A stretch of DNA of 26,990 bases from a virus, in the IMG/VR virus record IMGVR_UViG_3300016457_000232, positions 1 to 26,990 of that record. One strand, written 5' to 3'. This document shows, piece after piece, positions 2,411 to 15,425 of the stretch. Below the pieces are notes generated by a model. That model saw only the letters and a program-made list of their open reading frames with translations. It had not been told where the DNA came from and did not search any database. How positions within the stretch are numbered: position 1 is the stretch's first letter; every line of letters begins with the position of its first letter. The position numbers were made by a program, and so were the translations under genes.

Positions 2411-2946
2411 TTTATCCCCTCCTCTAAAAATTTTTGAGCTTTTTTAGCTAATTCAAGGTTATTAAACCCAATTACAATATGGCCAGCGTACTGGTCTAAA
2501 ATTTCATATGTTGTTGCTTTAGTTTGTTCGTCTTCAAGTATTCTGAATCCTAAGCTGGTATGTATGACACCACCAACTAATACTGAAGGTTTTTGACGGT
2601 AAACTATCTCAATACTCCATAAAGGGGCGAGATCTCCCAGCTCAACTGTTTTTGTTATATAAGGATATTTACACCCTATAGTACATAGCCATGCCTGAAT
2701 ATCAGTATCTCTTGAAGCGATTTTTGAATCAAGAGCTTGCAAATATTTTAATAAAGGGATTTCGAGCGTGCTTGGCTTTTTATATATAGGCCAATACGTT
2801 AATTCACACTGCATGTTTTCTAACTGTTTAAGGAGTTCATCACGAGAAACTGTTGTTATATAGCTGAAAAATTCAAATAAGTTATCAAAATGTAATTGTC
2901 GTTGCTGACGTTGTGAATAATTAAATATTCCATTGTAATGTATCAT
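2407..2946 (-). CDS. Hypothetical early phage protein
   Basis: 179 residues, unrecognised. The N-terminal 60 residues are rich in Gln, Tyr and Phe and predicted soluble; the C-terminal half has alternating strands (LWSIEIVYRQ, GHIVIGFNNLE) and ends in an amphipathic helix. No catalytic signature or membrane segment is visible. Its stop overlaps the nuclease start (ATGA), so it is translationally coupled to the recombination pair and may assist it. The SD is weak (GGCGGTAG) compared with its neighbours. Confidence 0.7.
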   Translation of the reverse strand: MIHYNGIFNYSQRQQRQLHFDNLFEFFSYITTVSRDELLKQLENMQCELTYWPIYKKPSTLEIPLLKYLQALDSKIASRDTDIQAWLCTIGCKYPYITKTVELGDLAPLWSIEIVYRQKPSVLVGGVIHTSLGFRILEDEQTKATTYEILDQYAGHIVIGFNNLELAKKAQKFLEEGIK

Positions 2947-4658: not shown

Positions 4659-4937
4659 TTATTCTTCATCTAAATCTTCAATAACCCAATTTGCACCGTC
4701 CCAATAGAGTGTGAACTCTGCTGGATCAAAATATTCGTCTATATTCAAACCTTTTTCTTCAAAAACCTTTTTTGCATCTTCCCAATGAACTGCTTCTATC
4801 TTATCTATCACCATTCCTCTGTTTTTTAATGTATAGCAAGCAACTTTATCTCCAAAATCCTCCTGAGTTATGCCTAAAGTTTCTAATTCTGATAAAACAA
4901 AACCACTAAATAACAACAATTCGACCTTTTCACTCAT
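4659..4937 (-). CDS. Hypothetical small acidic protein
   Basis: 92 residues, strongly acidic, ending in IEDLDEE. Acidic small early phage proteins are often inhibitors of host enzymes or DNA mimics, but nothing in the sequence proves that here. SD GGAGGG precedes the ATG. It overlaps the upstream gene by ATGA. Confidence 0.6.
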   Translation of the reverse strand: MSEKVELLLFSGFVLSELETLGITQEDFGDKVACYTLKNRGMVIDKIEAVHWEDAKKVFEEKGLNIDEYFDPAEFTLYWDGANWVIEDLDEE

Positions 4938-5233
4938 TTCAATCCCTCCTCTGTAATATACCTAATTTCTTCTTTGGTTCTGTTATCTAGTATGACATAG
5001 TCTTTGCGCTTTAAATAGTCCATCAAAAATTTCTTATCCTTTTCTATTTGCTTATCAAAATGTTTTTTGTATTTGCACCAGCTTGGATACCCAACCGCAA
5101 ATTCATATACTTCTTCGCCGTCATAAATAGAAATTCTGTTTGGTTGTTCAAAGTTGCCTGATTGATAAAACACAACAGGTTTTTCTTCCTTTTTAAAAGC
5201 TTCCTTTGCCATTTGCATTTTGCGTTTTCTCAT
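4934..5233 (-). CDS. Hypothetical protein, first gene after the structured leader
   Basis: 99 residues from ATG 5233 (MRKRKMQMAKEAF...). The frame stays open upstream to 5377, but that part overlaps the stable RNA hairpins and has Arg/Gly/Ser-rich low-complexity sequence, and the ATG at 5377 has its purine run directly abutting; ATG 5233 has AAGGAGGGG at good distance. The protein has a basic N terminus, a short beta-rich centre (KPVVFYQSG...RISIYDGEEVYEFAVGY) and a charged helical end. Function unknown. It appears to be the first gene of the early operon. Confidence 0.6.
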   Translation of the reverse strand: MRKRKMQMAKEAFKKEEKPVVFYQSGNFEQPNRISIYDGEEVYEFAVGYPSWCKYKKHFDKQIEKDKKFLMDYLKRKDYVILDNRTKEEIRYITEEGLK

Positions 5234-5266
5234 ACCAATCCCCTCCTTTTTAAAAGTGATTTCTAA

Positions 5267-5335
5267 GCCCACCGTGGGACTTGCACCCACATTCTGGAAC
5301 CTTCTCCCAGTTCCAGAACCCACTTTGGAGTGGGC
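5267..5335 (-). ncRNA. tRNA-like cloverleaf in the early leader
   Basis: On the minus strand a 7-bp closing helix (GCCCACT with GGTGGGC) encloses a 9-bp perfect hairpin (TTCTGGAAC, 9-base loop, GTTCCAGAA) and a T-arm-like hairpin GTGGG-TGCAAGT-CCCAC that abuts the closing helix exactly as in a tRNA. The T-loop differs from the usual TTCRANY only by G at position 55. There is no D arm, no 7-base anticodon loop and no CCA end, so it is not a normal tRNA. The 5' strand CCCACT could instead pair with AGTGGG 4 bases downstream, which excludes the closing helix and suggests a two-state switch. It sits about 20 nt upstream of the SD of the gene starting at 5233. Confidence 0.45.
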
Positions 5336-5391
5336 AATTGTTTTTTTATGTTCTCTTCCCTGAACCCTTTCAGTCATCTCCCTTTTTGGTG

Positions 5392-5412
5392 AGCCCTACT
5401 CGGGCCAGGGCT
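5392..5412 (-). promoter_or_regulatory. Leader hairpin upstream of the cloverleaf
   Basis: On the minus strand AGCCCT, a 9-base loop and AGGGCT form a 6-bp stem. A smaller hairpin, CTGAA-AGGG-TTCAG, lies between this and the cloverleaf. Together they make an about 200-nt leader dense in secondary structure. Confidence 0.4.
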
Positions 5413-5773
5413 ATTCACTTTTCAAAGACCTTTCATTCAAGTTCAACTTTAGTATAACATATTTTTATAATAATGTGTGTTAAGCATAAGTAAAATATAA
5501 GTTAAAAGTAAGTAAATGTTTTAGAGTAAGAATTAGCATAAAAATATAGCATAATTGCACAAAAATTGCATAATATATGCACAAAAAAGCGCCTTTTTAA
5601 ATCGATTTTAAAGGGTGTTTTTATACACAGGATATGTAATAACATAGGAAAGTATTAGAAAAGGCGGTTATAGGCGAATATACAAAGAGACGAGAAATAT
5701 AGTATTTATGCGGGTTTATGTGAACTTGAAAGGGAAATAAATAGGCAGGGAAAAATATCCAGAATGATATAAG
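5413..5773. other. AT-rich intergenic region between late and early operons
   Basis: No supported gene on either strand. The stretch is very A/T rich. It holds short direct repeats (TAGCATAA twice, TGCACAAAAA twice, several AAGTAA units near 5480-5520), a near-palindrome TGCATA-ATA-TATGCA (about 5568-5582), and an imperfect dyad around AAATCGATTT (about 5590-5620). This composition is compatible with a regulatory region, replication origin or attachment site, but none is proven. Confidence 0.4.
5451..5459 (-). promoter_or_regulatory. Candidate extended -10 promoter for the early operon
   Basis: The minus strand reads TGT-TATACT, an extended -10 element (TGN plus a hexamer close to TATAAT). 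The -35 region is poor. It would start a transcript near 5445, about 210 nt upstream of the first early start codon at 5233, giving the structured leader. Confidence 0.35.
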
Positions 5774-5800
5774 AAAAATCTGCCCCCGAAGCTCGGGGGC
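5774..5800 (-). terminator. Strong intrinsic terminator of the late operon
   Basis: On the minus strand an 8-bp perfect GC-rich stem (GCCCCCGA, 3-base loop, TCGGGGGC) is followed by AGATTTTTC. This is a classic rho-independent terminator for transcription arriving from the lysis genes. Confidence 0.85.
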
Positions 5801-5944: not shown

Positions 5945-6091
5945 CTATTTCAAAAATCTTTTCAAAAAATGTGCAAGGCCATTTTCATTTCCGAGTTTCT
6001 CTTCTTCTGCATATCTCTTTTCTAAGTCAATCTTTAGAAATTCTCTATCTATAATATCATCTGCTTGTTTTTTTAGTTCAGAGTCCGTCAA
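5945..6091 (-). CDS. Small charged protein with TTG start, last late gene
   Basis: 48 residues (MTDSELKKQADDIIDREFL..., with TTG read as Met). The start overlaps the stop of the holin-like gene as TTGA, a translational-coupling arrangement, with GGGGATGAG upstream. The protein is highly charged and helical (EKRYAEEEKLGNEN) and ends in a basic amphipathic tip (HFLKRFLK). It has no transmembrane segment. It may be a lysis accessory or a small unknown protein. The frame is intact and the composition resembles the neighbours. Confidence 0.6.
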   Translation of the reverse strand: MTDSELKKQADDIIDREFLKIDLEKRYAEEEKLGNENGLAHFLKRFLK

Positions 6092-14895: not shown

Positions 14896-15425
14896 AAAAA
14901 ATCCAGGTCTCTAATTGCCTCCGCTATGTTTTGAATCTGATTTGCAGAAAAACCAAGCTCTTCTAAGAACTGTTCAAATTCATCTATCTTGTCAATTCCA
15001 AACTCTTCTACAACATCAAAAACAATCATCATCTGAATTGCCAAGAATTTCCTTTGCCATTCTTCAAGTTCTTTCTGATACTTCTCATCGGTTTGGTCGT
15101 AAATATTAGTCCATCTCCATTTTGGATTTGTTCTGACTTCTTGAATACTTACACCTGCGTCCGCTGGTGATTGCCCCGTTTCGATATTAATAAGTTCCCT
15201 TTTTACAGGTGGCTTTGGTTGTGGATATTTGTTTAAAAATTCTTTCTTCAACGGATGGTCTCCGATAGGTTTAATTTCAATTTTAATGATCTCTTCTTTT
15301 TGGTTTCCTTTCTCATCGATATAAGTTCTTTTTACAGCCGCATAACCTCTTGACGCAAAAAAGCCTTTTGCCTTTTCCCTGTTTTTCGCAAGTTCCTTAA
15401 TGTTTACTATCTTCTCTTTACCCAT
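14868..15425 (-). CDS. Tail assembly chaperone, G form
   Basis: 185 residues from ATG 15425, which has AAGGAGGGG at good distance; the longer frame to 15464 lacks this. The protein is basic at the N terminus (MGKEKIVNIKELAKNREKAKGF), then Pro/Lys-rich, and helical and acidic at the end (EFGIDKIDEFEQFLEELGFSANQIQNIAEAIRDLDF). Position directly before the tape measure and the frameshift site near the 3' end identify it as the siphovirus tail chaperone. The unshifted product stops 8 codons after the slippery site. Confidence 0.75.
   Translation of the reverse strand: MGKEKIVNIKELAKNREKAKGFFASRGYAAVKRTYIDEKGNQKEEIIKIEIKPIGDHPLKKEFLNKYPQPKPPVKRELINIETGQSPADAGVSIQEVRTNPKWRWTNIYDQTDEKYQKELEEWQRKFLAIQMMIVFDVVEEFGIDKIDEFEQFLEELGFSANQIQNIAEAIRDLDFLPSSRQSNQ
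14895..14901 (-). promoter_or_regulatory. -1 frameshift slippery heptamer TTTTTTA
   Basis: On the minus strand T-TTT-TTA, in the correct phase: TTT and TTA are codons 189 and 190 counted from 15464, and both can re-pair after a one-base back-shift. A small hairpin (GCTC...GAGC) lies a few bases downstream. It fuses the G and T frames. Confidence 0.8.

Follow-up and report, generated by a model that had tools for sequence, protein, structure and literature searches.

What is the structured RNA ahead of the first early gene of this phage, and what would it do? In the window, i.e. the whole 26,990-nt stretch of viral DNA analysed here, the late genes (e.g. those matching transglycosylase, tape measure, capsid and portal proteins) stop near 6088, before the region of interest. 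A terminator-like hairpin on the minus strand (5782..5800), an 8-bp stem followed by a T tract that is a consensus match only, closes the upstream (late/lysis) transcription unit. Beyond it, an extended −10 promoter for the early transcript, TGT-TATACT, was read from the sequence of the minus strand at 5451..5459. The original prediction was that this transcript begins with about 200 nt of hairpins ending in a switch-like, tRNA-like fold.

Position of the leader and its relatives

The predicted structured leader is real and lies on the minus strand, where it extends for ~200 nt from about 5445 to 5234, ahead of early gene 1 (5233-4934). The Shine-Dalgarno (SD) sequence of gene 1, AGGAGGGG, was identified at 5240..5247 of the minus strand from sequence and fold. 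The order of elements from 5' to 3' is a boxA-like element, a conserved core closed by helix P1, an A-rich linker, a tRNA-like element (TLS), the SD and the AUG. Fold energy gave z = −2.53 for 5234-5460 on the minus strand and z = −3.64 for 5240-5445 on the opposite strand, so that energy alone is insufficient to fix the strand. Our promoter scan reported other hexamer pairs nearby, and the extended −10 at 5459-5451 was not among the reported pairs. At the equivalent place the distantly related phage contig L017 has TG-C-TATATT plus a −35-like TTTACA.

L017 contains the whole leader including the TLS, while a further viral contig, L018, has boxA, core and P1 without the TLS. Scans of viral and genome contigs gave no further leaders of this kind. 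BLAST of the window leader against phage records gave no match, and BLAST of the L017 and L018 leaders gave only 26-41-base matches at or near the gene start. Neither a gene 1 search in viral contigs nor the exact TLS pattern produced a match, an alignment of the phosphoesterase found no relative in genome contigs, and a RepA-type alignment found only L017, L018 and one weak third sequence in viral contigs. The phosphoesterase of the window shares 54-55% identity with those of three Marinitoga phages and 24-27% with 17 others (the best 20 of 26 records), and because of the identity to the Marinitoga phages the host of the window phage is probably a member of the Thermotogota. Among solved structures, the L017 ThyX protein best matched a ThyX chain (285 bits), and TM0449 (1kq4) ranked closely behind it, a result consistent with Thermotogota without being proof.

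Two other interpretations of the leader were rejected. An 8-bp closing stem, AAAAGUGA/UCACUUUU, appeared in folds of the window; neither the L017 nor the L018 leader is followed by its 3' half, and the stem would also bury boxA. As for a coding leader, the frame preceding gene 1 is open for 54 codons in the window, compared to 4 in L017 and 11 in L018. The stretch that separates the late genes from the leader contains an A/T-rich, imperfect inverted repeat at 5583-5623, aaaaagcgcctttttaaa...ttttaaagggtgttttt, which is possibly a bidirectional terminator.

The boxA-like element and the conserved core

The first element of the leader, GGTCTTTGAAAAGTGAATA (5412..5430, minus strand), resembles GYTCTTTAANA. 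One study gives this sequence as the gamma-proteobacterial boxA consensus and describes use of boxA outside rRNA as well (PMC5725501). As the consensus is gamma-proteobacterial, the agreement of the window boxA, GGTCTTTGAAA, at 9 of 11 positions is a near match only, and the same reservation applies to the 10 of 11 positions matched by a Marinitoga variant, GCTCTTTGACA. All 19 bases of the element are identical in four phage contigs, i.e. the window, L017, L018 and G001, the last of which came to light when five related records were searched for the leader. An 18-mer of the element was present at 13 sites on 12 contigs of a viral collection, and nine of these sites lie 26-200 nt 5' of an SD-preceded open reading frame of at least 40 codons. 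Variants of boxA were found in all three Marinitoga phages, and with up to 3 mismatches there were 17 matches in eight records, compared to 5 for a reversed control. The Marinitoga variants, such as GCTCTTTGACAAGTTAATA, sit between early genes, although only in MPV1 is one directly 5' of a gene annotated as DnaD-like (replication). None of four unrelated genomes matched the variant pattern.

Immediately 3' of boxA, a stem-closed core spanning 5411-5358 is near-identical in the window, L017 and L018. Its closing helix P1 is formed by GCCCUGGCCC (5402..5411) and GGGUUCAGGG (5358..5367), both on the minus strand. In the folds, which used hand-set helices, P1 is fully paired in the three leaders by differing sequences. 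Within P1, the minus-strand segment GAGUAGGGCUC (5391..5401) contains AGTAGGGCTC, which is identical in all three leaders, and the opposing segment GGGAGAUGACUGAAA (5368..5382) has a single difference among them (ACUGAAA/ACCGAAA). The boxA-like element and the core are the better-conserved parts of the leader. Matches to the core pattern in genome contigs were taken as chance, as none of the 37 had boxA upstream. With a looser pattern, 8 of 10 viral matches were judged by eye from their context not to be such leaders, the remaining two being L017 and L018.

We consider it probable that boxA and core, referred to here as module 1, form a boxA-led antitermination signal, and this is likely the main role of the leader. 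Module 1, which the original prediction had left out together with any antitermination role, starts ~20 nt past the promoter and would most likely recruit host Nus factors to RNA polymerase leaving the early promoter. Polymerase carrying these factors would then resist termination, as in lambda nut, rRNA leaders and HK022 put. The mean unpaired probability of the first 11 bases of boxA at 37°C was 0.25 in the window, 0.53 in L017 and 0.63 in L018; the predicted helices that partly include boxA would, if real, hinder NusB/NusE binding.

Module 1 resembles lambda nut and rRNA operon leaders in having a boxA-like element shortly after an early promoter and ahead of an operon. In lambda the N gene follows nutL, as gene 1 follows the boxA site here. 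A hairpin does follow boxA, in the form of the core, but unlike in those leaders the analysis revealed neither a boxB-like hairpin to which a known antiterminator protein binds nor, in the scanned genes of the window, an N-like protein. A further difference is that the conserved segment after boxA is larger and of another kind, and that the TLS is added. HK022 put is likewise a structured cis-acting RNA just 3' of a phage early promoter. It consists of two adjacent stem-loops over ~70 nt that act without a phage protein, and the paper on it (PMC9378689) does not use the word boxA, whereas the core described here, compared by fold architecture, forms a single stem that follows boxA and has a conserved internal loop. 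LoaP/dfn leaders also contain a hairpin that may direct antitermination, but their UNCG hairpin bound by a NusG paralogue (PMC12691694) was not seen in the window leader.

Several occurrences of the boxA sequence lie in other contexts. On the 192-kb viral contig L020, the 18-mer is at ~2568-2585 (minus strand), directly 5' of a tRNA-Glu gene that belongs to a cluster with 8 tRNAs, which is the sole hint toward boxA of host rRNA operons. In G001 the 19-mer at 15201-15219 (L015 2202-2220) is shortly 5' of a helix-turn-helix gene and opposite a divergent repressor-like gene. L021 has two exact 18-mer copies at 5959 and 7948, in one orientation and 2 kb apart. A nearly identical sequence of ~70 nt, cctacccaaaggatacagctaaggtcggctgagggagc..., is directly 5' of the 18-mer GTCTTTGAAAAGTGAATA in both L019 and L024; an Rfam search with it gave no match, and it is possibly a further conserved RNA. 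A second boxA-like variant of Marinitoga viruses, TCTTTGGAAAGTGAATA (KP836356 2744; KP836355 46202 and 48103), precedes the short repeat ggttgcacaaggcaacc as well as convergent genes.

The tRNA-like element and gene 1

The TLS is a 69-nt element on the minus strand (5267..5335) defined by its fold, comparison with L017 and shuffles. As originally predicted, a 7-bp acceptor helix (5335-5329/5273-5267, with one U-G pair) directly abuts a T arm (5290-5274) of 5 bp with the 7-nt loop UGCAAGU. A D arm, an anticodon loop and CCA had been described as lacking. This is correct for the CCA, in place of which there is UUAG, but the minimum-energy fold contains a mini D-arm of 3 bp (CCA/UGG) with a 3-nt loop at 5328-5320 and, at the anticodon position, an 11-bp hairpin with a 7-nt loop (5319-5309/5301-5291). 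The T-arm and acceptor geometry with the T-loop consensus occurred once in the window, compared to 0.1 times on average in a shuffled strand of 27 kb. It was absent from 2000 shuffles of the 206-nt leader, and 21 of the 2000 had this geometry when any loop was allowed.

The TLS shares with tRNAs (RF00005) the stacking of a 7-bp acceptor on a T arm that has 5 bp and a 7-nt T loop, but it fell short of the cutoff of this family. At gathering score Rfam had no match in the window, L017 or L018, and at E values up to 10 it returned only low-scoring unrelated families, every one below its cutoff. The weak L017 match to mascRNA-menRNA (RF01684) scored 14 bits compared to a cutoff of 42.5; no such match was reported for the window. 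ARAGORN called no tRNA in the window at standard settings and did not match the TLS with mitochondrial settings. At a 50% threshold, which also yields unrelated calls, it placed a tRNA at the TLS borders in the window (5335-5266, GAG) and in L017 (1455-1525, ggag). The TLS thus belongs to no known family and is no recognised tRNA at standard settings, which was one of the outcomes that the original prediction had asked about. A cobalamin-type riboswitch, an idea prompted by the sequence GGUGCAAGUCC, was rejected, as Rfam gave no match even when E values as high as 10 were admitted.

The original prediction had proposed a comparison with related phages for compensatory changes, and these were present between the window and L017. 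All 26 TLS pairs are standard in both sequences, and seven of them (one in the acceptor, five in the hairpin and one in the T stem) have changed on both sides. The T loop of L017 is the canonical UUCGAGU. In a control in which the partner was slid, 29-56% of cells were paired, and 6 of 500 shuffles reached the observed value. This comparison involves two TLS sequences, and that of the core three. A model built from the TLS, R1, recovered L017 and the window at E < 1e-29, the next best of 25 sources not being under E 0.2 (one source, L070, is the same contig as L017). Among 15 whole records R1 matched two, both of them sequences from which it was built.

Gene 1 (4934..5233, minus strand) encodes a 99-residue protein. 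An AlphaFold model with two-sequence input predicted an alpha-beta3-alpha2 fold with a mean pLDDT of 89.8. No Pfam family (E 0.001) or PHROG family was found, and fold searches of PDB and BFVD gave no match at E ≤ 0.001. The best VIA match had Z 5.2, and several ribosomal-protein chains were among the weak ones (Z about 3.4-4.4). The first gene that follows the TLS leader in the window is a homologue of its counterpart in L017, with 29% identity across 108 columns and a pairwise E of 4e-9. When eight early proteins of the window were queried against the L017 contig, gene 1 alone had a match. The first gene of L018, which has no TLS, did not match either of these genes at E 0.01, so that the TLS co-occurs with a homologous gene 1 in two phages versus one. 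All 26 pairs are kept, seven of them by two-sided changes, and both TLS leaders go with a gene 1 of the same descent, so that the TLS probably represents a cassette under selection rather than a decayed tRNA. That a distant phage keeps the shape with different letters suggests that the leader is probably a working regulatory device.

Alternative pairings and possible control of gene 1

Pairing of the acceptor 5' strand with either of two GTGGG blocks, proposed from the window sequence, was seen in the folds. In both phages this strand has three possible partners: the acceptor 3' strand, a local repeat and the SD. The local hairpin, CCCACU-CCAA-AGUGGG (5319..5334, minus strand), excludes the acceptor helix, as does pairing of the SD region with the segment CAAUUGCCCACUCC (5327..5340, minus strand). 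The acceptor 5' strand within this segment is the strongest partner of the SD in the leader in both phages. Forced folds at 37°C with the TLS, the local repeat or the paired SD gave −40.2, −36.1 and −37.7 kcal/mol for the window and −46.0, −44.7 and −48.5 kcal/mol for L017, such that the TLS is favoured in the window and the SD-paired state in L017. When folding was constrained to each of the three states at temperatures of 37, 55 and 65°C, their energies stayed within 4.1 kcal/mol of one another in both phages, and at 65°C the forced folds differed by at most 1.4 kcal/mol. Pairing of the SD was as strong or stronger in 264 of 500 shuffled window leaders and in 112 of 500 shuffled L017 leaders, and is taken as a possibility and not as evidence of selection. 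The best SD pairing in L018 was only −6.6. Switch-like behaviour of the leader is energetically possible according to these calculations.

A non-functional remnant of a phage tRNA within the early leader, a decayed tRNA being one of the explanations offered originally, would account for the tRNA-like geometry and for the ARAGORN calls at the 50% threshold in both phages. It is very unlikely, since pairing was maintained throughout the element between distant phages by two-sided changes, both elements occupy the same place and depart from tRNA in the same way (by the mini D-arm, the 11-bp hairpin and the missing CCA), and ARAGORN with standard and mitochondrial settings had no match, the lower threshold also producing unrelated calls. 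We regard the proposed riboswitch as highly improbable. A multi-stem leader directly 5' of an SD would suit a metabolite riboswitch, and the T-loop module is found in some riboswitches, but nothing points to one here: no Rfam riboswitch appeared even at E up to 10, and the downstream phage genes are of unknown function, not metabolic. The conserved repeat beside the TLS could instead serve mainly to terminate antisense transcripts that enter the leader, with the tRNA likeness secondary, as its complement is a terminator-like hairpin in both phages (window plus strand 5319-5334; L017 minus strand 1471-1456). This explanation is very unlikely, as the T-rich tail starts only past an AATT-type spacer of 5-6 bases and as it would account neither for the T arm and its T loop nor for the 11-bp hairpin that covaries.

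The main rival explanation, possible although we lean against it, is that the TLS is a processing signal cut by RNase P at the acceptor 5' end and perhaps by RNase Z at the 3' end. Processing would release a small RNA or detach the early mRNA from the antitermination leader. A U lies 5' of the acceptor in both phages, and RNase P and RNase Z together generate mascRNA, to which L017 has its weak sub-threshold match. The TLS has the 12-bp acceptor/T stack with a T loop that RNase P measures (PMC4919913). Non-tRNA substrates are also known, including phage C4 RNA (PMC11143913). On the other hand, the TLS has no 3' CCA, its D arm is compressed, and cleavage alone leaves the link between the TLS and one gene-1 family unexplained.

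The reading that we prefer, with a probability of about 0.5, is that the leader is a cis-acting RNA of the early operon composed of a boxA-led nut/put-like antitermination module and a tRNA-mimic module acting on gene 1. The second module, the tRNA-like cassette between module 1 and gene 1, would most likely provide local control of gene 1. When the cloverleaf forms, the acceptor helix would hold the strand CCCACUCC; when it does not, CCCACUCC would be free to pair with the SD and block translation. The balance could be shifted by a tRNA-handling enzyme, the gene-1 protein or the order of co-transcriptional folding. For module 2, such a translational switch is slightly more likely than an RNase P/Z processing site, and the two roles are not exclusive. 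Of the original idea of a tRNA-mimic regulator, the structure has been borne out, and the idea stands only that far. By analogy, the leader would work like nut/put leaders and tRNA mimics, a likeness that does not establish membership in a named family. In mascRNA, plant-virus TLS and the phage C4 precursor an acceptor/T-arm stack or tRNA-like fold is also part of a longer RNA. Unlike these, the present element belongs to the mRNA leader of a phage, where an antitermination-like module precedes it and an SD follows, and it has no CCA and no family match above cutoff.

No description of boxA combined with a tRNA mimic was found in the accessible literature on phage leaders and antitermination. 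Whether the leader represents a new class of phage regulatory RNA, in which a tRNA mimic is wired to an antitermination leader, is doubtful at present; in such a class the choice of CCCACUCC between the acceptor helix and sequestration of the ribosome binding site would let translation of gene 1 report on the tRNA-handling machinery, binding of the gene-1 protein or transcription of the leader. Antitermination leaders are known from few phages. If our reading is true, Nus-type phage antitermination extends to phages whose hosts are probably Thermotogota, and the leader offers a small RNA switch, based on the tRNA fold, that can be tested directly. Together, boxA, core, TLS and gene 1 provide a defined element for finding other such leaders.

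The loop at the anticodon position (window 5308-5302) contains GGAG in both phages, being GGGAGAA in the window and ACGGAGUG in L017. This GGAG is complementary to a CUCC ~20 nt upstream, and may form a pseudoknot or be a protein site.
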